Shown: one piece after another, positions 14,949-44,611 of the stretch
How positions within the stretch are numbered: the first letter of the stretch is position 1
Layout: each line of letters begins with the position of its first letter
NCBI RefSeq assembly: GCF_011806425.1
Contig: NZ_JAATOV010000003.1
Span: 434,001 to 498,000, forward strand
Reading direction: 5' to 3'
DNA: 64,000 nt
Origin: Thalassospira lucentensis
Lineage (GTDB): Bacteria; Pseudomonadota; Alphaproteobacteria; Rhodospirillales; Thalassospiraceae
The notes under the pieces: model-generated
What the model was told of the DNA's origin: nothing
The model's input: only the letters and a program-made list of their open reading frames with translations
Database searches by the model: none
Made by a program: the position numbers and the translations under genes

Positions 14949-15080
14949 AACCGTCCTCCTCGGATGGCGGCTTACGAATCAGGGCACAAAAGAAAGGCCC
15001 GACGTCATGGCGCACCGCGCCAATCACCGGTCGTAGACAAAAAGCATCGCACCCCATCGGGGCAACGTTACCTGTCACGC

Positions 15081-15235
15081 GTTATCCTCTCCCATCCGGA
15101 CTATTACCGTCGGCTCCGGAGTTACACCGGATCTGCTGACCCTGCCGACCCAAACGGATCAACAGGCGCTCGCGGGCTTTCCAGATAACTGGATTTACCG
15201 CCGGTAGGGATTTGCACCCTGCCCTGAGAATAAGC
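15081..15235 (-). ncRNA. FMN riboswitch (RFN element)
   Basis: Read leftward, the conserved RFN blocks appear in order: AGGGCAGGGTGCAAATCCC, TACCGGCGGTAAATCC, AAGCCCGCGAGCG, GATCCGGTGTAACTCCGGAG, CCGACGGTAATAGTCCGGAT and GGGAGAGGATAAC. It begins about 40 bases after the predicted transcription start and ends 132 bases before ribB. A C4/G4 hairpin with five T about 8 bases beyond it (around 15039-15062) may be part of the expression platform. Binding of FMN should reduce ribB expression. Confidence 0.95.
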
Positions 15236-33628: not shown

Positions 33629-35104
33629 TTAAATCAGACTTCGAATGTAGTCCAAATCCGTCGGCACAAAATCTGGCCCCATAAATTGCCGTCCGCTGGT
33701 GATTGCACCGGGCCAACGGTCTGCCGGGCTTGTCCAAACCGTCCCATCTGGCATCGGGATCGCAAAATCCGCCTCATAAGGCACCTGATAGGCGCTGCGC
33801 AGGTTAAACCGCCCGGCTAAGCCGCTCTCGAACAACGGTGTTTGCGCCGGCCGTGGATCGTGAAGCACGTCTGGATAGCGATCAAAAACGGCGGGATAGG
33901 TCGGATGATTTGCCAGATCGCCGGAAAATGTAACGGGTAAAGGCGGTACTGCCGACAGGCGCAAGCCATCTGCATCCCCGAAAAACGGCTGATCTGCTGG
34001 CATAAAGTCAGTTGGCAATGTCGATGGATCGGCGTGTTCGATTGCGTTACGCGCATTGATCAGGCCGCGTGTGGTACCCTTTTTGATGTATTTCTGACGC
34101 AGGAAAAAGCTGTTGTGAAAACAGGCGGAAACAAAGTCTGGCTGCGGCACTGAGCCGCCCTTGCCCAGCTTAAACACAGCCCCACCATTATACTCATCGC
34201 CTTCTGGTCCTGGGCGGCTATCGAACCAGCAGATATTACCAAAATAGTACCAAAAACCGCCACGCACCCCATCCTGCGAGAACAGCTTGTGGCAGTTATA
34301 AAACCGGTTTCGCCCGATCCACCAGCCAACAGCGGTTGCTTCTGGCTCGACCGGATTATCGCGTATATAGCTGAAACTATTATCAAAAATTCGGACGTCT
34401 CGGTTAAATGTGCCGATGGGGGCGCTTAGATTCTCCGATGAGACATCCATGCGAATACCGTTATAGCAATCGCGAATATCATTGCGCGCAATCAGGACAT
34501 TTCCGCTGATGTCATCGGCGCCGAAAAACGCGCCATTCAGATATCGAAACGGTGCCTTTCCATCCGGGTGACGGTCGCCGTCATGGATGTCATCCCACCG
34601 AATGCCCCGCCACATGGTTTCATCCTGCACCCAACGACATTGCGTGATTTCAATGGCTTGGGTCGCCATACCTGTTGCATAGAATGCATAGGTGCCGTCG
34701 GTGATATCTAGCCCGGCAAAGGAAAGAGCATGGCTGTTTTCGATATAAATCGCACTTGGCCACGACCGGCTGATCGACAGGTTTTCAATCCGGATATGAG
34801 CGACATTGATCAACTGAAAAGATGCGAAACGATCGCGGCCGGGATTATTCGCTGAAACTGAATAATCGGGGTTATTATTCGATGTGACCCGCACCCCGGT
34901 TTCACCCCGCAGAATGATCGGCGCGTCTTCGCAGCCAATGCGCGGGAATACCAATGGCGCGCAAAGGGTGTAATCACCGGCAATAAGACGGATCAGGTCA
35001 CCGGGCATGCTTTCGCAGACGGCCTGCTGAAGGCTTTTTGTCGGACGCAGGGCTGCATCAATCCAGCATTCCTGCGCGTTTGGCGACACATATACAATCC
35101 TCAT
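33629..35104 (-). CDS. right-handed parallel beta-helix protein, function unknown
   Basis: The 491 residues include an N-terminal segment typical of pectate-lyase-like superfamily proteins (SLQQAVCESMPGDLIRLIAGDYTL), then repeated short turns such as IRIENLSIS, LSFAGLDITDGT, IEITQCRWVQDE and VLIARNDIRDCYNGIRMD that suggest beta-helix coils. Many aromatic residues fill the later third. No signal peptide is visible. The start at 35104 has AAGGAT five bases upstream. It may act on or bind a polysaccharide; substrate and location are unknown. Confidence 0.72.
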   Translation of the reverse strand: MRIVYVSPNAQECWIDAALRPTKSLQQAVCESMPGDLIRLIAGDYTLCAPLVFPRIGCEDAPIILRGETGVRVTSNNNPDYSVSANNPGRDRFASFQLINVAHIRIENLSISRSWPSAIYIENSHALSFAGLDITDGTYAFYATGMATQAIEITQCRWVQDETMWRGIRWDDIHDGDRHPDGKAPFRYLNGAFFGADDISGNVLIARNDIRDCYNGIRMDVSSENLSAPIGTFNRDVRIFDNSFSYIRDNPVEPEATAVGWWIGRNRFYNCHKLFSQDGVRGGFWYYFGNICWFDSRPGPEGDEYNGGAVFKLGKGGSVPQPDFVSACFHNSFFLRQKYIKKGTTRGLINARNAIEHADPSTLPTDFMPADQPFFGDADGLRLSAVPPLPVTFSGDLANHPTYPAVFDRYPDVLHDPRPAQTPLFESGLAGRFNLRSAYQVPYEADFAIPMPDGTVWTSPADRWPGAITSGRQFMGPDFVPTDLDYIRSLI

Positions 35105-35412
35105 ACAATATCCTTTTCCGCGCAAAAGCCTCTGATTTTGCTCGCACGATAGCGCAAAACCGAAAAATGCAAAATGTGCCGATGAAATCGTCGGTTAAAA
35201 TCCGATTGTGAACCGTGATCGACGCAGCAGGCATCGTAGTTGTGATCATCGGTTTTCAGATGGGGTGGTTCAGAGGAATCTGTCAGATGAATTTGGGTGC
35301 GGCACAGCTTTGGTGGTGGGAGCATCTTTTGGGTCTGACGCAGACTTTTGCGAGCTGCCTGTGTTTGGGAGCTGATCCGCTATCGTTTTTACCGATTGCG
35401 GGCTTGTTAGAG
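35105..35412. other. gap between the exporter gene and the beta-helix gene
   Basis: I see no supportable gene in these 308 bases. A short hairpin CCGATGA/TCGTCGG at about 35180-35195 has no T-run, so transcription from the metal operon might continue into the beta-helix gene. Confidence 0.4.
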
Positions 35413-37722
35413 CTAGACCTGATCGCCGCTTTCGACGGGCCATCGGCTGTGGTGGCTGTCGATAACGAAACGGTGCTGATGGGTCACGGGGGGATGGAAA
35501 TGCTTGTGGCGATGGCGTGGATCGTCGGTTGCATGGTCGTGGGCGTGATCTGCGGCTTTGGCGGTGGATATTGCCGATGATTCTTGATGCGGGGCATTAA
35601 GAGTATGTGCGGTCGCATGTGTGCTGTCGGGGGCACGGCCATCAGCATCAGCATCAGCATCAGCATCAGGATCGACATGACCGTGGCTGTGGTGCGGGTC
35701 GGTGTGATCGTGCGGGTGGTCGTGCCAAAATCCCGGGTGGCTGTGATGAATGACCGTTGGATCGTTCGCAGGCCACGCGCGCAGGGCCAAAGCACCGCCG
35801 AACAGGGCCAAGCCGCCCGATACCCAAAAGGCCACGGATAGATCAAGCAAGCCACCGACCCAACCCACCACAGCATAGGCTACAAGCCAGCCGCCGTGCG
35901 ATAGCGCGAAATTGGCGGCAAAGAACGCCGATCTGTCGCCCGGGGCAGCAGAGCGTTGCACGAGCCGACCGCCCGGGGTTTGGGCAAATGTCGTCCCCGC
36001 GCCGGCAATGGCCCAAAGGGCAGCATAAAACAGCACGCTTAAGACGTTCTGGCTGCGACCCGATGCGGTTTTTGGGCGTGCTTCTTTGAGTTGATCCAAT
36101 GCAGATGTTTGGTCTGCTTCCTCAGCGCGATCCGACCCGGGTGTTGGGTATGTGGTAGCGGGATAATCCGATGCGGCGTTGCTGGAGGCAGCTTTGGCTT
36201 GGTCCAATGTGGATGTTTGGTCTGCGGCCTCAGCGCGGTCCGATCCGGGCGTTAGGTATGTGGCAGCGTGATAATCCGATGCGGCGTTTTGGTGTGCAGC
36301 GTCGGTTTGATCCAATGTGGATGTTTGGTCCTCGGTCCCAGTGCGATCCGGTCCGGGTTTTAGGAATGGCGCAGCGGTGTGGTCCGGTGCGGCGTTTTGC
36401 GATGCGGCAGCGGGCCGATAGAGCGCGGATTTTGCGTCCGTGAATGCAGTGCGATCCGATACCGGTTTTAGGTATGCGGGCGCTGGATGATCAGATGGCG
36501 ATTTTTGGGATGCGGCAGTGGGGGAAACCGATTCTGCGTTTTGGGATGCGGTTTCGGGGTGATCGGATGAGGGTTTTAGATATGCTTCGGCCGCGTGATC
36601 TAATGCCAGTTGTAGGTGCGAGGCGGCGGGCTGACCTTGGGCAATCTCCCGTGCTGATCCCAAGGTGGCAGCGTGGTCTTGGTTGGTGTTTGGGTGTTCG
36701 TTGAGGTCAGAAACGAGATTGTGGTCGGAACGTACATTGCGATTAGAAGCGTGTTTTAGGTCGAAACTTTGGTTTTGGCTGGTGACGCCGTTTAAGTCCA
36801 CATGTGGGCCAAGCTCGGTCATGGATGCCGTGCCGCCGATCAGCATCGCCAAAGCGGCGAGGAAGACACCTGAGAGCATCAAGCGGCGTTCGCCGAGGCG
36901 GTCAATGATCCGGGGGATTAGGAAGGCGGCGATCATGGACCCTGCCCCGGCACAGGCCAGAAAGGCGGTTGTCATCATGTCACTGCCGCCCAAGACCGAC
37001 TGGGTGAGGACAACCGTGTTGACGATGATCATGGCGCCAACACATGACACCGCGAAATAAACCGCCAACAGCCCACGCAGGCGCGGCGTTTTAAGATAGG
37101 CCACGACCCCAAACAGCGTGTTTTCATAAATCCCGCCCACCCGATCAGTTTGGGCAGGTTTTGGAATGGTGGCGGTCACGATCAGGATGGCTGAGAGCAG
37201 AAACGTTACGCCGTTAACCAAGAACAAGCTGTCAAATTGCCAGACAAACAGCAAAACCGCGGCCAAGGCCGGGCTGGCAAGGTTTTCAAGATCATAGGCA
37301 AACCGGGCATATGAAAGGCCCTTGGTGTAAGTTTCTTCATCGTCGAGCAGTTCGGGAATGATCGCCTGAAACACCGGGGTAAAAGCCGCCGACGCAGCAT
37401 TGATGACAAACACCAACACGAAAATCTGCCAGATTTGGTCAACAAATGGCAAACACAAGACGATCGCCGCGCGCACAACATCCAATGCCACCAGATAAAT
37501 CCGGCGTGGTACGCGATGGGCCAGACCACCGGCAACGGGGGCGATCAGAAGATAAGCGACCATTTTAAAGGTCAGCACAGAACCCAGCACCAGACCGGCA
37601 TTCTGCCCGGCCAGATCATAAGCCAAAAGCGACAGCGCAACCGTTGTCAGCCCCGTCCCGACCAAGGATGTGATCTGTGCGCCGAAGAGATGGCGAAAGG
37701 CTGAAACGGAAAACGGTGACAT
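35413..37722 (-). CDS. NreB-like MFS metal exporter with repeat insertion and His-rich tail
   Basis: This 769-residue protein has a 12-helix MFS core. Nine membrane segments lie in residues 14-298 and three in 557-648. A roughly 255-residue insertion (301-556) splits them and includes five tandem 36-residue repeats (373-552). By topology the insertion would be periplasmic. The C-terminal 115 residues contain about 30 histidines, including HDHPHDH and HHSHGH, and a DADADADAD run. Such tails occur in NreB-type nickel exporters. It is the last gene of the cobalamin-riboswitch operon, 28 bp after cbiO, so Co or Ni efflux is inferred. Confidence 0.8.
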   Translation of the reverse strand: MSPFSVSAFRHLFGAQITSLVGTGLTTVALSLLAYDLAGQNAGLVLGSVLTFKMVAYLLIAPVAGGLAHRVPRRIYLVALDVVRAAIVLCLPFVDQIWQIFVLVFVINAASAAFTPVFQAIIPELLDDEETYTKGLSYARFAYDLENLASPALAAVLLFVWQFDSLFLVNGVTFLLSAILIVTATIPKPAQTDRVGGIYENTLFGVVAYLKTPRLRGLLAVYFAVSCVGAMIIVNTVVLTQSVLGGSDMMTTAFLACAGAGSMIAAFLIPRIIDRLGERRLMLSGVFLAALAMLIGGTASMTELGPHVDLNGVTSQNQSFDLKHASNRNVRSDHNLVSDLNEHPNTNQDHAATLGSAREIAQGQPAASHLQLALDHAAEAYLKPSSDHPETASQNAESVSPTAASQKSPSDHPAPAYLKPVSDRTAFTDAKSALYRPAAASQNAAPDHTAAPFLKPGPDRTGTEDQTSTLDQTDAAHQNAASDYHAATYLTPGSDRAEAADQTSTLDQAKAASSNAASDYPATTYPTPGSDRAEEADQTSALDQLKEARPKTASGRSQNVLSVLFYAALWAIAGAGTTFAQTPGGRLVQRSAAPGDRSAFFAANFALSHGGWLVAYAVVGWVGGLLDLSVAFWVSGGLALFGGALALRAWPANDPTVIHHSHPGFWHDHPHDHTDPHHSHGHVDPDADADADADGRAPDSTHATAHTLNAPHQESSAISTAKAADHAHDHATDDPRHRHKHFHPPVTHQHRFVIDSHHSRWPVESGDQV
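35641..35670. repeat. hexanucleotide tandem repeat in the exporter gene
   Basis: Four copies of ATCAGC plus a variant ATCAGG encode the Asp-Ala run of the cytoplasmic tail (residues 686-694). Confidence 0.9.
36067..36606 (-). repeat. five tandem 108-bp repeats encoding 36-residue units
   Basis: The units occupy residues 373-408, 409-444, 445-480, 481-516 and 517-552 of the MFS protein, with no gaps. The shared pattern is a (S/P)D(H/Y) near the start, YLxPxSDR around unit positions 9-16, DQTSxLDQ around 21-28, and an AxxxNA end. The last two units are the most alike, which suggests recent duplication. Confidence 0.85.
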
Positions 37723-37750
37723 GGCTTAAACCGTTAAATGAGGATGCTGG

Positions 37751-38587
37751 TCATGCTTGTCCGGCGACCGGGCTGATGTCGGGTCTGGTATTGGGTTTTG
37801 GAACCGCCCCCGGATTGGCAGAGGACTTTACGCTGGCGCTGGCGCTGGCATCGGCGTTGTCCGGAGCGTTTGCATCAGGGTTGGCTTCCATCACCTCGGC
37901 CTTGGCGCGTTCCGCGGCACTGCATTTTTTGGCCGGGCGCGTCGATAAGATGCCGCCGCGCAATTCAAGTGTGCGGGTGGCGAGTTTGCGCCGGAAATGC
38001 GGATCGTGGGAAATCAGGATCATGGCCTGTGGCAGGCCGAGCAAGATGTCTTCGAGGCGTTCGAGGTTTTCTTCGTCAAGCGCGTTGGTTGGTTCATCGA
38101 GCAGCAAAACATCCGGGCGCATTGCCAAAACAGCAGCGACCGAGACCAAGCGTTTTTCACCGCCCGAGAGTTCATGGGTGATGCGATCACGCAAATGGCG
38201 CAGATGGAGTTGATCAAGCACCTCGTCCACGATGGCCAAGGCTTCGTCCCGGCTGGCACCAAGATTAAGCGGGCCAAAGGCGATGTCTTCGACCACGGTT
38301 GGACAAAATAGCTGATCATCAGGGTCCTGAACAATGAAGCCGACCCGGCAGCGCAATTCGTGAAAATCCGCCTCGGAGACGCAGACCTTGCCAAAAGCAG
38401 ATACACGTCCGGAATGCGGTTTGATCAGGCCAACCAAAATGCGCAAAAGCGTACTTTTCCCGGCCCCGTTTGGCCCGGTGATAAACAGGCGTTCGTCGGC
38501 ATTTAGGGACAGGTTCACGCGATCAAGGACCTTTTGCCCGGATCGGTAGCCATACGAAATGTCGTTGAGGTCAATAAGCGAAGACAT
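37751..38587 (-). CDS. cbiO: cobalt/nickel ECF transporter ATPase CbiO
   Basis: This is the ATPase of an energy-coupling-factor importer. Walker A is GPNGAGKST, the signature LSGGEKRLVSVAAVLA, Walker B VLLLDEPTNALD, and the H-loop ISHD. I start at the ATG at 38587 (MSSLIDLNDISYGYRSGQ), which overlaps cbiQ by 17 bp. The last 60 residues are an unusual Ala/Asp/Asn/Pro-rich extension beyond the ATPase fold. In naming by Ni homologues this is NikO. Confidence 0.93.
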   Translation of the reverse strand: MSSLIDLNDISYGYRSGQKVLDRVNLSLNADERLFITGPNGAGKSTLLRILVGLIKPHSGRVSAFGKVCVSEADFHELRCRVGFIVQDPDDQLFCPTVVEDIAFGPLNLGASRDEALAIVDEVLDQLHLRHLRDRITHELSGGEKRLVSVAAVLAMRPDVLLLDEPTNALDEENLERLEDILLGLPQAMILISHDPHFRRKLATRTLELRGGILSTRPAKKCSAAERAKAEVMEANPDANAPDNADASASASVKSSANPGAVPKPNTRPDISPVAGQA

Positions 38588-39368
38588 ACATGCGATCCAA
38601 AAGGACAAAGGCGAAAATAAGTGCAACAAAGCCGACGCCAAACAGGACGTCGCGCGATTTAAATTCCAAATGATCAATCATCGGGAAATGGCCACTAAAA
38701 CCACGGCATTTCATCGCATCAAGCACGCGTTCGGCCCGTTCAAGCGAGCGTACAAGCAGCATCCCGAAAAGATAGCCAAACGAGCGATAGGTATGAAACG
38801 TATTGCGGGCGCGAAACCCGCGCAGCTTCATCGCCATGCGCAGACGGTGATATTCATCATGCAGCACCGAAATATAGCGCACGGTAAACATCATCAAATG
38901 CACCAACGCCGCCGGGCATTTTAAACGATATAGCGTATGGCCCAAGGCCACCGGCGACAGGCCAGAGAGCAAACACAGCATCATCAAGACGACCGCATTG
39001 GCCCGCACCCCGATCAAAACCGCATGCATCAGGCCTTCTTTGCTGGCATCGGCACCAAACAGGGAAAACATCGGGGTGCCGGGTGTTGTAAAGGGCAACA
39101 TCACCAGCATCACGATGATAAACCCATCCATCGCCGCCATGCGTTTTAAGGTCAAACGCAGCGGGAGGTCGGTCAGAAAGACAGTGCCAAAGGCGACAAG
39201 AAACGCGCCAAAAGCAAATTCCACCTGATGCAAAGCCACCACCATGATGGCAAACAGGCCTGCCGCAACCACGCGCACACGCGGATCAAATGATCCGACA
39301 AAAGACGGCGCGGTGCCGCTGCTTGCCTGTGCGCCCAGTGGTTGGTCATGCCCGAAAAGGTGGCTCAT
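38571..39368 (-). CDS. cbiQ: cobalt/nickel ECF transporter transmembrane protein CbiQ
   Basis: CbiQ is the T-component membrane scaffold, with about five or six helices in 265 residues. The cytoplasmic coupling segments MKLRGFRARN and LERAERVLDAMKCRGFSGHF are the paired motifs that touch the ATPases. It overlaps cbiL by 4 bp and cbiO by 17 bp. Confidence 0.93.
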   Translation of the reverse strand: MSHLFGHDQPLGAQASSGTAPSFVGSFDPRVRVVAAGLFAIMVVALHQVEFAFGAFLVAFGTVFLTDLPLRLTLKRMAAMDGFIIVMLVMLPFTTPGTPMFSLFGADASKEGLMHAVLIGVRANAVVLMMLCLLSGLSPVALGHTLYRLKCPAALVHLMMFTVRYISVLHDEYHRLRMAMKLRGFRARNTFHTYRSFGYLFGMLLVRSLERAERVLDAMKCRGFSGHFPMIDHLEFKSRDVLFGVGFVALIFAFVLLDRMYVFAY

Positions 39369-40036
39369 GCGTGTTTATCTTTGGCTCTTAGACGACGTGC
39401 TGCGATGTAAAACGCAATCCCGAAGAAGCCAAATATATAGCCAATCGCCCCAAGAATCGATTGAAGATCGTTCTTTTCCTTATAGGCGGCAATTTCGCGA
39501 CGCAGCGGGCGCACTTCGTCGCGCACGATGGCGGCAATCGTGGCTTCTTCTTGCGCGGTCAGGGCCACGTGTCCTGTGCTTGGTGCTGAGCTTGTTTCTG
39601 CCCCCTGCTCAGTCTCAGTCATCGAGGGGGTTGCATTTACATCGCCTGCAACAGCACCGTTGTCAGTTTTCGGTGTGGCTGGCTGTGTGGTTTGAGGATT
39701 GGTCAAGACTGAGGACATTTCGGAAATGTCGAAAACGACCTTGGCAATATGGCCCGCCCCAAGATCGGCGCGAAACACATGATTGACCATCTTGGTTGGG
39801 GGATAGACGAAGAAACCATCTTCGTCTGTTTTTGCCTCGCCAAGTTTGGTGCCGTCCTCGTCAAAGACTTGGACAAGGGTGTTGGCGGCCATATCGCCGT
39901 TCGAAAAGCCAATTTCGCCTTCGATATTTGTGCCGCTGGCGAACACCGATGCGATGACCTTGTGCGCCTGGGCCGGTCCGCACACCGCACCGAGCAAAAG
40001 AACTGCCAGTGCAAAGAAGGCCCCAAGCTTAGCCAT
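39365..40036 (-). CDS. cbiL: CbiL/NikL-type auxiliary component of the metal importer
   Basis: The protein has a signal peptide (MAKLGAFFALAVLLLGAVCGPAQA), then a mature N-terminus HKVIASVF with an accessible histidine, a carboxypeptidase-regulatory-like beta domain (residues 24-110), a Thr/Pro linker and a C-terminal membrane helix (about 190-215). NikL/CbiL proteins replace CbiN in some importers. The start at 40036 overlaps the cbiM stop by 8 bp; a longer frame from 40105 would bury the signal peptide. Confidence 0.83.
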   Translation of the reverse strand: MAKLGAFFALAVLLLGAVCGPAQAHKVIASVFASGTNIEGEIGFSNGDMAANTLVQVFDEDGTKLGEAKTDEDGFFVYPPTKMVNHVFRADLGAGHIAKVVFDISEMSSVLTNPQTTQPATPKTDNGAVAGDVNATPSMTETEQGAETSSAPSTGHVALTAQEEATIAAIVRDEVRPLRREIAAYKEKNDLQSILGAIGYIFGFFGIAFYIAARRLRAKDKHA

Positions 40037-40715
40037 TGCTGGCCTCGTGCGCGGTTGTTGCGGTTTGAGGGGAAGCAGGCGCGTCAAATGCCGGTTCATG
40101 GGCAATATCGGCCGTATCCGTGCGCAGCAATTCTGGTTTGGCTTTGCAAATCAGGAAAACGGCAGCGGCTGAAATCAGGCCTTCGATGATCATGATCGGG
40201 ATATGGGCAAAGAATACCAGCTTGGCGGCGGGTATGAACCCCTCGCCGCTGAGGCCCAATGAAATCGCGACAAAAATGGTTGTGACCGCAATTGATGCCG
40301 CCCCGGCAATGCCGCCCCAGATGGCGGCGACTTTGGGCGTGCTTCGCGCGACCAAACCGCGGAAGGTCAAACCAATCAGCACCGCCGGCATGGCGATATT
40401 GACGGTGTTGACCCCCAACACCGTCAAGCCGCCAAAGCCAAAGAAGACCGCCTGAAGCAGCAGGCCGACAAACAAGGCCGGAAACGCCGCCCAGCCCAGC
40501 ACAAGACCGGCAAGGCCACTCATGATCAGATGCACACTTGTCGGCCCGACGGGCACATGGATAAGGGATGCAACAAAGAATGTTGCCGACAGGACACCGG
40601 TTGCCGGAATTTTATCGATTGGCAGTTTGCGCAGACCAAGGCCAAGCCCCGCGACCGCAATAACCCCACCACCAATCAAAACTTCTGGGGCCAGTGCCCC
40701 GTCGACGATATGCAT
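40029..40715 (-). CDS. cbiM: cobalt/nickel ECF transporter substrate-binding protein CbiM
   Basis: CbiM is the S-component that captures the metal. The N-terminus MHIVDGALAPEVL has the His2 and free amino end that coordinate Co or Ni in this family. Residues 40-75 (HVPVGPTSVHLIMSGLAGLVLG) give further conserved His residues. About seven helices fill 228 residues. The ATG overlaps the TAA of the upstream DUF4198 gene by one base (TAATG). Confidence 0.94.
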   Translation of the reverse strand: MHIVDGALAPEVLIGGGVIAVAGLGLGLRKLPIDKIPATGVLSATFFVASLIHVPVGPTSVHLIMSGLAGLVLGWAAFPALFVGLLLQAVFFGFGGLTVLGVNTVNIAMPAVLIGLTFRGLVARSTPKVAAIWGGIAGAASIAVTTIFVAISLGLSGEGFIPAAKLVFFAHIPIMIIEGLISAAAVFLICKAKPELLRTDTADIAHEPAFDAPASPQTATTAHEASNG

Positions 40716-41524
40716 TATTCTGTTCCTACACCCAGATCATAGGCGCGCACCCAAAGGACGGCGTCCTGTGACAGTTCTTTGCCTTCATATTCAGTATCAG
40801 GACCGCTGCCAAGCGCAGCAAAGCCCCAAAAACCGGCCTTAGGAATGCCAAACGTAAAGTAGCCGTTGTCATCAGACACCGCGACAAGCGCGCCACCGGG
40901 CATCGGCGATGCGGTCGGCTGTTGCGGTGCGTTTTTGGCCATATCCGGTTCGGCGGCCATATATTCGATTTCAATTTCAATCCCGGCGGCCGGTTTGCCA
41001 TCGGTCAAAACCCGACCGGTAAAGGTCGAACCAGTTACAATATTGGTCGGACGGTTGAGCGGCAGAATTTCAGTTTTCAGCCCCTGCGGTTCCATCCAAT
41101 CGGTCGGGATTTCATTGCGGTTAACGTACGATTTGGTGATCTGCTGGATATAGATATCTTCGCTTTGTTCATAGTAAGGTTCAGGCACGACCACCATGAC
41201 GTAATCGCCACTGCGTTTAAGCGTCAGGGTGCCTTCAAAGGCCTTACCACTATTCTCAGCGCCGTTGAACACAATCGGCGAAAGCGTTGATTTCAAATCC
41301 ATTTTTTCGCCGCGATGAATGGCATAAAATTCACGTGGCGGAGCCATATCCATGACATGTCCGTTTTCAAACGGATGCCAAAAGATCAGTTTAACCGTCT
41401 GATCGCCCGCCTTGCTGACATTGACATCGGGCGTATAGGCCAACTGAAAATGCGCCTGCGCAGATCCAGAAGCCAACAAACTACAGACGGCTGCAACAGC
41501 AAGCCTTTTTGGTATTTTAAACAT
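40715..41524 (-). CDS. DUF4198 periplasmic protein, NikK-like
   Basis: A signal peptide ending SAQA precedes the mature start HFQLAYTPDVNV, with His right after the cleavage site as in NikK. The 245-residue mature protein is beta-rich, and its last third resembles a carboxypeptidase-regulatory domain (FTGRVLTDGKPAAGIEIEIEY). NikK is thought to help deliver Ni or Co to NikM. It is the first gene of the operon, behind AAGGAAGAG and the cobalamin riboswitch. Confidence 0.85.
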   Translation of the reverse strand: MFKIPKRLAVAAVCSLLASGSAQAHFQLAYTPDVNVSKAGDQTVKLIFWHPFENGHVMDMAPPREFYAIHRGEKMDLKSTLSPIVFNGAENSGKAFEGTLTLKRSGDYVMVVVPEPYYEQSEDIYIQQITKSYVNRNEIPTDWMEPQGLKTEILPLNRPTNIVTGSTFTGRVLTDGKPAAGIEIEIEYMAAEPDMAKNAPQQPTASPMPGGALVAVSDDNGYFTFGIPKAGFWGFAALGSGPDTEYEGKELSQDAVLWVRAYDLGVGTE

Positions 41525-41696
41525 GGTATCGTCTCTTCCTTAAACGACGTGCGCGGGCATTGCCCAAACACACAGGGTCAGAGAACGATAGGATGGCTGG
41601 AAGCAGATACCGGGATCGATCAAGAAACCGCATTCCCCTGCAACCTGACGCTCACCCCGGCGTCCAACAGTTTGGCACCGGCCGATATGCGGCTGG

Positions 41697-41872
41697 CGGT
41701 CTAAGGCAGGTCTCCTGGCTTACGGTTTTAAGAACATTACGCCTTCCCGGCCAAAACCAGTGGCATGTGTAATATTCAAGACCGCTTACAGTTGCGGGGG
41801 CAGCCGTGGCATTGTCAGGGGTTTGACCCGAAACGCACCACGTTCCCTTTTAAGTCGATCTGATAAGGACCG
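41697..41872 (-). ncRNA. cobalamin riboswitch
   Basis: Read leftward, the conserved parts appear in order: AAAAGGGAA, GGTGCGTTTCGGGTCAA, TGCCACGGCTGCCCCCGC, AACTGTAAGCGG, the B12 box GCCACTGG, GGGAAGGC and GTAAGCCAGGAGACCTGCC. The ends CGGTC/GACCG close a P1 helix. It lies 173 bases before the DUF4198 gene. Adenosylcobalamin should shut down the downstream metal operon, which points to cobalt rather than nickel as the imported metal. Confidence 0.95.
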
Positions 41873-41889
41873 ACACCAAAGACAGCGCC

Positions 41890-41918
41890 ATAATCCATCG
41901 GCGGTGTTGGGGTGTCAA
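41890..41918 (-). promoter_or_regulatory. promoter of the cobalamin-riboswitch operon
   Basis: Read leftward, TTGACA (41913-41918), a 17-base spacer and GATTAT (41890-41895) place the transcription start about 10 bases before the riboswitch. Confidence 0.7.
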
Positions 41919-42082
41919 CCATTACCATTCATACGTTTCGATATTTCGTCATACCAGCATGGGAACAGTGACAGCCCCCTCGACGTTCGGGGATGCCAAG
42001 ATTAAGATTGCCACCATTGACGCCGACACGGTCGGAGAACACCCCCCGTTCACACGGGTGCAAAACAAGGAATGCGTGGGAT

Positions 42083-42625
42083 ATGAACCCGGAAGACGTT
42101 TTAAAGTTCTGGTTTAAGGAACTCGGTCAAAAGCAATGGTTTGAAAAAGATGAGTCGCTTGATCGGCACATCACAGAACGGTTTTCAGATTTCCATACCG
42201 CCGCCCGTGCCGGGGAATTTTATGGCTGGCGCACGACCGCCAAGGGACGCCTAGCCGAGATCATTGTGCTTGATCAGTTTTCGCGAAACATGTTCCGCGA
42301 CAGCCCCGCGGCATTTGAAAACGATCCGATGTCGCTTGCCCTTGCGCAAGAAGCCGTGGCGGCCGGAGCGGATAAAAAGCTTTTGAAAAGTGAAGAACGG
42401 GCGTTTTTATATATGCCCTATATGCATTCGGAATCAGAGCTGATCCACGAGATCGCGATGGAGCTTTTTGATCAGCCCGGACTTGAAAATAACCTTGAAT
42501 TTGAAATCAAGCATAAGCGGATCATCGACCGATTTGGCCGCTACCCACACCGAAATGACATACTGGGCCGAACATCAACGCCCGAAGAAATTGCGTTTTT
42601 AAAAGAACCGAATTCGTCATTTTAG
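42083..42625 (+). CDS. DUF924 family protein
   Basis: A 180-residue cytosolic protein beginning MNPEDVLKFWFKELG, the standard DUF924 start. The LAEIIVLDQFSRNMFRDSPAAFENDP and AFLYMPYMHSESELIHE segments are family hallmarks of a TPR-like helical fold. The function is unknown. The frame is open 30 codons upstream into the riboswitch promoter region, but those residues do not belong to the family. It is divergent from the metal operon. Confidence 0.9.
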   Translation: MNPEDVLKFWFKELGQKQWFEKDESLDRHITERFSDFHTAARAGEFYGWRTTAKGRLAEIIVLDQFSRNMFRDSPAAFENDPMSLALAQEAVAAGADKKLLKSEERAFLYMPYMHSESELIHEIAMELFDQPGLENNLEFEIKHKRIIDRFGRYPHRNDILGRTSTPEEIAFLKEPNSSF

Positions 42626-42631
42626 GCATGC

Positions 42632-42663
42632 AAAAAGGGACGCAAAGCGTCCCTTTTTCTTTG
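42632..42663. terminator. bidirectional terminator between DUF924 and ybiB genes
   Basis: AAAAAGGGACGC/GCGTCCCTTTTT with a 3-base loop has T-runs on both strands. Confidence 0.92.
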
Positions 42664-42711
42664 ATTTGGCAAGGCCATAGGATGGTGATGGCTGGTTACG
42701 CTTGGATCGGC

Positions 42712-43770
42712 TTAGCCGACTTCCTTGTTGCGGTTGTCCCACCAGCCTTCGATGAGTGTTTCCGCCTCGTCCATATAGTCGGCTTTGCCCGCCAGAAACG
42801 CGCCCATGGCCGCACTGCCCTTGATCCGGGCGATGGCAGCGGCGTCTTCGACCTCGCCGCGCCAAACAGCAAGAAAATGCGCCAAGGTAACGGGGCTTTG
42901 TTCTTCTTGTTCTTTTTCGGTGCGGGGCAACAGTGCCGGCCAGCGCACGTCTGACAATTCGCCATCGACCAGCATGCGCAGATCGACATGTTTGAACGGG
43001 GTGCGTTCGGCTTCGCCGCCGCCGCCCTTGATCACGCCAATGCGCGGCAGATCAAGCAATTTGCCGGTTTCGCGATGCACGTCCAAAAAGGCCGGATGAA
43101 ACACCCCCAAAAAGGCCGAGCGGGCCTGAAGCGGGTTAAGAAGTCGCAGCAAGGTATTTACCGGACTGCGCAAGCCCAAAAGTGAGCGCAACCCGATCAG
43201 TTCGCGCAATTTGGGATGCATATGACGCAGCGGAAGATAGGCAAAGCCGTTTGACGCGATGTCAGAACGGGCTTCTTCGGCGGACATGGCCACGGGCAGT
43301 TTCATGGCCTTGACCGCGGCCTCGGTGCCGACACCATTTGCCAGATGCGAATTATAGCCGTGCATCAAAACCGGCACGCCATTTTGCGACAAAAGATGGG
43401 CCGAGAGCACAAACCACGGCAAACCACGCGATCGGCCCGCCGCATAAGACGGCCAATCAAGCATTGGCTGGCCTTCGGTGTCGGTTTCTTCCTCGCCATC
43501 GAGGCGGGCGGCTTTGCGTACCGCATCAATCATGCCTGCCAGTTCTTCGGGCGTTTCGGCACGATAGCGCAGCATCAGCAAGAACGCGCCAAGCTGGATG
43601 GGTTCAACCTCATCGCGCAGGATCATTGAAAAGGCGTCAAAGGCCTCATCGCGGGTCAGGCTGCGTGAACGGCCCGGCCCCCGAAAGAAAGTCCGCAGAT
43701 ACCCCGAAAAAGGATGGGCTTCGGGTAAATCGTTTTCTTCCTCGAGCTGTTCAAGATGCTCGTCGGTCAT
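42712..43770 (-). CDS. ybiB: TrpD2/YbiB-like glycosyl transferase family protein
   Basis: The 352 residues follow the anthranilate phosphoribosyltransferase fold: an N-terminal helical domain (RDEAFDAFSMILRDEVEPIQLGAFLLMLRYRAETPEELAGMIDA) and a C-terminal domain with VIKGGGGEAERTPFKHV. The PRPP-binding GTGGD motif of true TrpD is missing (HGYNSHLANGVGTEAA occupies the region). YbiB homologues bind nucleic acid and belong to the SOS response in E. coli rather than making tryptophan. I prefer the ATG at 43770; a GTG at 43779 is possible. Confidence 0.85.
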   Translation of the reverse strand: MTDEHLEQLEEENDLPEAHPFSGYLRTFFRGPGRSRSLTRDEAFDAFSMILRDEVEPIQLGAFLLMLRYRAETPEELAGMIDAVRKAARLDGEEETDTEGQPMLDWPSYAAGRSRGLPWFVLSAHLLSQNGVPVLMHGYNSHLANGVGTEAAVKAMKLPVAMSAEEARSDIASNGFAYLPLRHMHPKLRELIGLRSLLGLRSPVNTLLRLLNPLQARSAFLGVFHPAFLDVHRETGKLLDLPRIGVIKGGGGEAERTPFKHVDLRMLVDGELSDVRWPALLPRTEKEQEEQSPVTLAHFLAVWRGEVEDAAAIARIKGSAAMGAFLAGKADYMDEAETLIEGWWDNRNKEVG

Positions 43771-43837
43771 GTCTGTCACCGAATTTGTTGCCAGTCGTTT
43801 TAGATAATGTGTCTGTTAAAGCGCGATCAGATTTTTA

Positions 43838-44611
43838 TCAATCATGAACGCGGGTAAAGACCCACTCGGTATCGGTGGAAAGATCATCCTGATAGCGATA
43901 GCCATCGGTATCGAACTTTTTAAGGTCTTGTGGGTTTTCAAGACGGTTATCAATCATGTAGCGCGCCATCATGCCGCGCGCACGCTTGGCCGAGAAACCA
44001 ATCACCTTGGCCACCCCTGCTTTGACTTCTTTAAAGACCGGGGTGATGATCGGACCATCAAGGACGTCTTTTTTGACCGATTTGAAATATTCGTTCGACG
44101 CCAGATTGATCAGGCTGCGGTCTTTGTGGCCCTTGGTCAGGGTATTGATCTGTTGGGCGATTTTATCGCCCCAGAACGCATACAGATCCTTGCCGCGATC
44201 ATTTGACAGGCGCGTGCCCATTTCAAGACGATACGGCTGCATCAAATCGCGCGGGCCCAGCAGGCCATACAGGCCCGACAGCATGCGAAAATGATCTTCG
44301 GCCCATTCGATGTCTTTGGGTTTCATGGTGTCGGCATCAAGCCCAACATAGGTATCACCGCGAAACGCAAACATTGCCGGTTTGGCGTTTGTGCGATCGA
44401 ACGGCACAGAAAAATGCTGGAAACGCTGATAATTCAGATCTGCCAGATTTTCACTGATTCCCATCAGCTTCATGAGGTCGCTGCGGCTTTTTTTGCGCGC
44501 AACTTCAATCAGCTCCTGCGTGTCATCAAGAAACACAGGTTGGGAAACCGCCATTTCTGGTGCGTCTGTTTCGAAATCCAGTTTCTTTGCCGGGGACACA
44601 ACAGCAAGCAT
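43838..44611 (-). CDS. yaaA: peroxide stress protein YaaA
   Basis: YaaA (DUF328) limits free iron during peroxide stress and binds DNA. The protein begins MLAVVSPAKKLDFE and has FQHFSVPFDRTNAKPAMFAFRGDTYVGLDA, LYGLLGPRDLMQPYRLEMGTRL and NLASNEYFKSV, all family signatures. It is 257 residues, as usual. It is divergent from the parvulin gene across a 193-bp region with an inverted repeat. Confidence 0.94.
   Translation of the reverse strand: MLAVVSPAKKLDFETDAPEMAVSQPVFLDDTQELIEVARKKSRSDLMKLMGISENLADLNYQRFQHFSVPFDRTNAKPAMFAFRGDTYVGLDADTMKPKDIEWAEDHFRMLSGLYGLLGPRDLMQPYRLEMGTRLSNDRGKDLYAFWGDKIAQQINTLTKGHKDRSLINLASNEYFKSVKKDVLDGPIITPVFKEVKAGVAKVIGFSAKRARGMMARYMIDNRLENPQDLKKFDTDGYRYQDDLSTDTEWVFTRVHD

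Follow-up and report, generated by a model that had tools for sequence, protein, structure and literature searches.

A cobalamin-riboswitch operon of Thalassospira that joins a NikKMLQO-type metal importer to a predicted NreB-like exporter

Background

The textbook cobalt importer is CbiMNQO under the control of a vitamin B12 (cobalamin) riboswitch, and the loading of cobalt rather than nickel into B12 is usually discussed with regard to importers, to metal sensors and to how chelatases handle the metal. The operon described here lies in a 64,000-nucleotide stretch of the Thalassospira lucentensis genome (contig NZ_JAATOV010000003.1, positions 434,001 to 498,000; hereafter the window). It shares the cobalt-type regulation and the M, Q and O subunits with CbiMNQO, but has no CbiN among its genes, has NikK and NikL, and carries a predicted exporter at its end. 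The riboswitch-linked NikK1ML1QO importers of Zhang et al. (2009, PMC2667541) have the same gene set and riboswitch class, occur in proteobacteria and are predicted to take up cobalt; the accessible text of that paper mentions no exporter in their operons, whereas the window operon has one.

On the efflux side, the exporter is a major facilitator superfamily (MFS) protein that shares both its fold family and a VID..H..WP signature with NreB of Achromobacter xylosoxidans and Streptomyces mirabilis and with NirA/NcrA of Klebsiella plasmids and Leptospirillum ncrABCY. The plasmid NirA stands beside NcrB, NcrC and NcrY, whereas none of these is found within 5 kb of the window gene, which has an importer operon and a B12 riboswitch instead. 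The proteins differ as well: an insert of about 250 residues is peculiar to the window protein in this comparison, and the Klebsiella NcrA tail has far fewer histidines. The Ni/Co exporter of the RcnR-RcnA (Escherichia coli) and ncrBC systems is found directly after cbiO in operons related to ours, just as the window MFS gene is, but RcnA belongs to another protein family (PF03824 / NF007454) and in 7 of 9 loci is accompanied by its own metal-sensing repressor. The window differs in both respects, with an MFS protein and without a repressor. In the openly licensed literature (most subscription papers were outside the scope) we found no report of NreB- or rcnA-type efflux with a cobalamin riboswitch, nor any such report for Thalassospira.

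The operon is an arrangement of known parts that is itself new, with a testable answer to the paradox of importing and exporting metal together. Judging from the sequence, we hold with about evenly balanced confidence that it combines, under one B12 riboswitch, a nickel-type energy-coupling factor (ECF) importer that likely fetches cobalt for B12 with an MFS protein that discards co-imported nickel.

Results and discussion

An importer and a predicted exporter behind one riboswitch

All features of the operon are on the minus strand of the window. The cobalamin riboswitch aptamer (RF00174; 41688..41895) scores 121.6 bits (E 5.3e-30), where the gathering score is 31.5, and is the second strongest of five cobalamin riboswitches in G000, the 4.5 Mb genome that holds the window. 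After a leader at 41525..41687 come nikK (DUF4198, PF10670; 40715..41524), cbiM/nikM for the substrate-binding membrane subunit (PF01891, with NF004905 over its cut-off; 40029..40715), nikL (NF058648, 189.1 bits against a cut-off of 100; 39365..40036), cbiQ for the T component (PF02361 and TIGR02454, over cut-off; 38571..39368) and cbiO for an ATPase with a low-complexity C-terminal tail (PF00005, and TIGR01166 at 183.4 bits, below its cut-off of 211.8; 37751..38590). The full NikKMLQO set of an ECF importer is present in one operon. Successive genes from nikK to cbiO overlap by 1, 8, 4 and 20 bp, values that rest on the ATG starts chosen for nikL and cbiO, for which a mechanical open reading frame list gives longer TTG starts.

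The MFS gene (35413..37722, 769 amino acids) starts 28 bp past the cbiO stop codon. A separate promoter or terminator between the two genes would have spoken against a shared operon, and a consensus scan of the minus strand of this junction (37723..37750) lists no promoter- or terminator-like site. From this layout we infer a joint cbiO-MFS transcript. The gene order that an earlier note had read from this DNA, from riboswitch through nikK-cbiM-nikL-cbiQ-cbiO to an MFS gene on the same strand, is borne out by the family matches and coordinates. The promoter that it placed in front is a promoter-like site, TTGACA-17-GATTAT at 41890..41918, with 10 of 12 consensus matches; it is plausible, but not significant, because positions 34000-44000 hold four such sites against 7.1 +/- 2.8 in shuffled sequence.

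Conservation of the arrangement within the genus

Our genus set comprised 29 genomes, G000 included. A close CbiM relative (at least 78% identical) occurs in 16 of them, and in all 16 the riboswitch is followed by the importer and then by the MFS gene, 22-70 bp past cbiO. The spacing was measured from the ATG nearest the conserved N-terminus; some alternative starts lie closer in or upstream. T. povalilytica (L071) has this arrangement as well. These 16 are the operons with a complete 5' part; a seventeenth, in G022, was left out, as its contig begins in nikL. Because every complete operon keeps the MFS gene at this short distance, the gene order is not due to chance.

The other 12 genomes have a diverged importer (CbiM 57-60% identical), and after its cbiO stand a DUF924-like gene and no MFS gene; no NcrB or NcrC is listed for these 12 either. 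Three of the 12 loci have a cobalamin riboswitch and nine have none even at E 0.5. In one of the three, in G020, an MFS gene is next door but divergent from the riboswitch operon.

Past the MFS gene, seven loci (L036, L037, L041, L042, L047, L048 and L049, at about 10.3-11.9 kb) carry a diverged NikK-like gene (32-36%) on the opposite strand, and L047 and L048 also have a NikL-like gene there (29-30%).

The MFS protein

The protein matches PF07690 (MFS_1) at 107 bits against a cut-off of 33.4. Its best NCBIfam model is TIGR00900, at 228.6 bits and below the cut-off of 319.6; an insert-free relative, P0003, which is 86% identical to the window protein, reaches 238.3. The accessible part of PMC9195940 describes the NreB of S. 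mirabilis with the same two models. Over 98%, P0003 shares 43.6% identity with NirA/NcrA, a nickel-efflux protein from a plasmid that is flagged class NICKEL in its record and stands with NcrB, NcrC and NcrY. The tail (35413..35772) has 25 histidines in its last 119 residues and a conserved FVID-x-HH-xx-WP signature near its end. This VID..H..WP ending recurs, with slight variation, in a 27-row alignment and in NcrA, and at least 16 histidines in the last 90 residues are found in 119 of the 120 best database matches, the window protein included. The RcnA models PF03824 and NF007454 do not match the window gene. The description of the gene as NreB-like with a His-rich tail stands, and by sequence the protein appears to belong to the NreB/NirA/NcrA nickel-efflux group, with export itself predicted.

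The same matches bear on a quite different role, in which the MFS protein would secrete an organic metallophore that aids cobalt capture and would so be part of uptake. The window protein is over the PF05977 cut-off, and a relative (L152) matches the enterobactin exporter EntS, at 44 bits and far below the cut-off of 324. But the closest curated group is one of nickel resistance, the near-universal His-rich tail suggests metal ions, and no gene for chelator synthesis is among the operon genes; we regard this role as very improbable.

The earlier note had missed a large insert, of about 250 residues, between transmembrane helices 9 and 10 (residues ~303-553; 36064..36816). Its predicted structure is disordered, with pLDDT (the per-residue confidence of the model) mostly below 50, and its DNA contains a 108-bp repeat (36084-36396). 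In a word-limited search of 5.8 billion proteins, the insert was found beyond the window protein (P0001) only in P0002, whose first 310 residues are 98% identical to those of the window protein and whose insert is 80% identical over 85% of its length. We rejected the idea that the insert is a mobile or shared repeat, as the protein search gave only P0001 and P0002 and plasmid DNA held no match; the search did not extend to the remainder of the genome. The loop presumably faces the periplasm, as in the usual MFS topology, and the insert looks like a fast-evolving disordered linker outside the transport mechanism.

A probable cobalt importer with a proposed nickel-clearing partner

As far as its accessible text goes, PMC2667541 places the B12-linked NikK1ML1QO systems as predicted cobalt importers in a nickel-related group and leaves unsettled whether they retain nickel uptake. 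The characterised NreB moves mainly nickel, with a slight effect on cobalt, according to the part of PMC9195940 available to us. For the window importer, the riboswitch suggests cobalt as the metal; for the exporter, we infer the direction of transport and the metal moved. In the mechanism we propose, low B12 would let the leader allow expression of the whole operon, MFS gene included. The NikKMLQO importer would take up cobalt but also nickel, and the MFS protein, whose characterised relatives confer mainly nickel resistance, would export the nickel, for a net gain of cobalt. With ample B12, importer and exporter would be shut off together, which would be harmless because nickel entry would have stopped too.

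The earlier note had seen import and efflux of the same metal under one leader as unexpected, since excess B12 would switch off both. The refuting result that it named, a promoter or terminator between cbiO and the MFS gene, did not turn up in the consensus scan, and our survey finds the arrangement conserved in the genus. A single metal for both transporters is not supported as stated, since NreB moves mainly nickel and the riboswitch points to cobalt. The paradox then probably dissolves: because NreB-type transport is mainly of nickel, switching both off at excess B12 would be just the control required of an exporter that clears nickel alongside a cobalt importer. A nickel-clearing role would also explain a nickel-type exporter behind a switch for a cobalt product. 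Co-expression with the importer would make sense too, since a poorly selective importer calls for the exporter whenever it is active and at no other time. On this reading the exporter would have given up a nickel-sensing repressor and come under the switch of the transporter through which the nickel enters.

The repressors beside other MFS genes of this family fit such a contrast. Of the best 80 of 579 MFS loci, 76 lie outside Thalassospira, and 51 of these carry an NcrB-type repressor no more than 5 kb away; its identity is at least 45% in 49, it lies in the 500 bp upstream of the MFS gene in 45, and 39 are on the strand of that gene. None of 18 Thalassospira loci (L036-L052 and L055) has one. 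NcrB of Leptospirillum is the nickel-responsive regulator of ncrA, according to the accessible part of PMC3046157. Cobalt efflux is generally governed by the metal ion and not by B12 (PMC7689651; restated in the accessible text of PMC7917058), and the window arrangement departs from this rule.

MFS loci without a repressor have mixed neighbours, including HpaB monooxygenases and an ArsP permease, that give no functional hint. For example, NreB-like genes without NcrB lie beside HpaB-type monooxygenase genes in L076 and L082, and in L112 such a gene follows an ArsP-type permease with a heavy-metal domain by 26 bp.

Survey outside the genus

The earlier note had proposed a genome survey of this gene order, and ours covered 317 genomes of the order and 385 sampled from the class. 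In the order, genus included, the MFS protein was found in 44 genomes (E 1e-60) and a CbiM relative in 95 (E 1e-20). Outside the genus, the MFS gene directly follows cbiO in two genomes of one further family (G221 and G247 of f19), both behind a riboswitch, as established by coordinates and then by sequence. Other families have RcnA or RcnR-RcnA in the same place: RcnR with RcnA behind a riboswitch in G119 and G137, RcnR-RcnA in G235 and G236, where no riboswitch reaches the gathering score, and RcnA alone, again with no riboswitch at that score, in G033. In the class sample, 13 of the 385 genomes have such a CbiM (E 1e-40), two of them Thalassospira; cbiO is followed by RcnR-RcnA in G525, G614 and G463 and by RcnA in G432, all behind riboswitches. 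The loci with RcnA in the exporter place behind a riboswitch are L162, L167, L192, L193, L196 and L197.

Altogether, a detected Ni/Co exporter ends 11 of 33 related importers outside the genus, the MFS protein in two and RcnA in nine (seven with RcnR). Sorted by family code, the riboswitch importers fall into 15 groups, of which 7 have an exporter in one member or more, the two importer types of the genus counting as two groups. Judged by sequence family, at least two unrelated predicted exporters, MFS and RcnA, are linked with one type of importer. The MFS family itself seems to have reached the place after cbiO at least twice, in Thalassospira and in the two f19 genomes, on a quick tree of 92 MFS rows: the label 'after cbiO' needs two changes, and the starred branches force two. 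This tree took in 11 of the 16 genus operons, and the two f19 rows are long branches whose exact place is unsure.

These counts come from a 69-row table of importer loci, genus included. RcnA was called by NF007454 over its cut-off in L154, L162, L167, L168, L192, L193, L196 and L197 and by similarity to NcrC in L155; RcnR was called by PF02583 in six loci and by similarity to NcrB in L193. Absence of an exporter means that no MFS-, NcrB- or NcrC-like gene, the families sought, follows cbiO, where several next genes are without a known family. Besides G022, we left out G248/L157 (upstream side cut, next gene without a Pfam match), L199, four loci with cbiO or the downstream side missing or cut (L172, L173, L180 and L181) and L186-L190, which have no cbiO match (riboswitch in L186 and L188). 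L194, with a 35-residue NcrB-like stretch and no exporter found, and L171, where RcnR/RcnA is divergent beside the importer, were counted as having none. In the order, 40 of the 74 CbiM places outside the genus were taken in; the other 34 form a low-identity class (43-56%).

A general habit of the MFS gene to follow importers was rejected: among the best 80 of 579 MFS loci, importer genes are near only four, all in Thalassospira and one of them divergent. In the class sample the MFS protein occurs in 34 of 385 genomes and, by coordinates, stands beside CbiM only in the two genus genomes, although contig breaks could hide some cases.

Three loci with importers of the cobalt-linked type (L154, L155 and L168) have RcnR-RcnA or RcnA after cbiO and no cobalamin riboswitch, an absence judged by the gathering threshold alone; the riboswitch scan omitted L052. 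In L154 and L155, RcnR might control the whole unit.

Evidence against nickel clearing, and other explanations

Several observations weigh against nickel clearing as the role of the exporter. The three diverged (type-B) genus operons with a riboswitch (G010, G020 and G026) have no exporter after cbiO, and 22 of the 33 related importers outside the genus show none either. There, an exporter is present in 8 of 30 loci with a riboswitch and 3 of 11 without (Fisher p 1.0), and we rejected the riboswitch as the cause of exporter presence. The exporter instead tracks importer type, at 11 of 33 against 0 of 8 (p 0.08), or against 0 of 20 once the other importer type of the genus is added (p 0.004), in a grouping that we made post hoc with a lower bound of about 58% on CbiM identity. 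Regrouping by NikK identity of at least 50% gives 10 of 29 against 1 of 12 (p 0.13), and against 1 of 24 with the genus loci added (p 0.008), with G463 (CbiM 57-58%, NikK 40%, RcnR-RcnA present) changing sides with the criterion; all of these p values are loose, since neighbouring genomes are related. In favour of nickel clearing, no MFS- or NcrB/NcrC-like gene follows cbiO in any of the 20 loci of the other importer type (NikK 31-38% identical). Importer type predicts exporter presence better than the riboswitch does, in this post hoc grouping.

The independence of exporter and riboswitch outside the genus would fit a gene that is a mere neighbour, with its own promoter or regulator, and whose closeness to cbiO brings read-through without functional weight. 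The divergent MFS gene of G020 agrees with this, as does a gap of 22-70 bp, which exceeds the overlaps among the importer genes. We nevertheless consider it improbable, as the short gap is kept in 16 of 16 genus operons, two unrelated exporter families reached the same place, and no promoter-like site is listed at the window junction.

The leader also bears on how tightly importer and exporter would be coupled. We rejected an intrinsic terminator as the expression platform, as none was found in the leader before nikK. The leader fold is no better than that of shuffles (z -0.33). A conserved inverted repeat, nearly invariant, surrounds the probable ribosome-binding site of nikK. The repeat hints at translational control, which would reach the MFS gene through polarity and would couple it less strongly.

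Among the other cobalamin riboswitches of G000, one precedes a BtuFCD-like transporter and one lies about 0.6 kb before cobW-cobN; the presence of CobN is a sign that the cell inserts cobalt. A strong one (L056, 9558-9771) lies 20 bp before the large and small subunit genes of a class I ribonucleotide reductase, the B12-independent form, and a weak one (40.8 bits; L059, 6601-6809, or G000 C4:422600-422808) lies 23 bp before the genes of methylmalonyl-CoA mutase, a B12-dependent enzyme. Weak matches occur in many other genus genomes. The window also contains a flavin mononucleotide (FMN) riboswitch, at 15080-15235 on the minus strand (118.2 bits).

Urease is present in all 29 genus genomes, so nickel is needed and not simply waste. 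HupE is found in six of the 29 and not in G000, which has only one CbiM relative (at E 1e-10); discarding nickel could therefore cost urease activity. This would suit an importer that serves both urease nickel and cobalt, with the MFS protein balancing nickel and B12 control a compromise for the shared importer. A B12-controlled importer would, however, starve urease in B12-rich medium, and other nickel importers are possible, such as NikABCDE or the NicO-family protein found in all 29 genomes. We think a shared importer unlikely, though less so than a mere neighbour.

The main rival to nickel clearing is a cobalt overflow valve, in which the MFS protein would export cobalt itself and so restrain rapid uptake until the slower B12 signal shuts the riboswitch. 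RcnA, which takes the same place in other families, exports both nickel and cobalt (PMC7689651), and NreB affected cobalt tolerance slightly in most tests and more strongly with one construct, in the accessible part of PMC9195940. Feedback through B12 would also lag behind metal entry. Yet the authors of that study conclude, in the same part, that NreB mainly transports nickel; the export of a scarce metal while it is wanted would be a futile cycle; and the general control of cobalt efflux by the metal ion (PMC7689651) is at odds with a B12-controlled valve. An overflow valve is possible but doubtful, and we prefer a nickel-clearing exporter.

Conclusions

We propose, more tentatively than for the window operon itself, that in alphaproteobacteria a poorly discriminating nickel-type importer may be used for cobalt, the metals being sorted by an exporter that removes the wrong one and is expressed from the importer's own B12-riboswitch transcript. 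If this is true, the exporter would respond to the end product made with the wanted metal and not to the metal removed, an exception to the rule for cobalt efflux that would have been reached with two unrelated exporters, the NreB-type MFS protein and RcnA. It would be a clear example of an efflux gene trading a metal-sensing repressor for a vitamin riboswitch; as it recurs with a second exporter family, the pattern is open to testing by others in harmless, culturable bacteria. Part of the answer to how cells obtain cobalt over nickel would then be a pump for the wrong metal that is switched on together with the importer.

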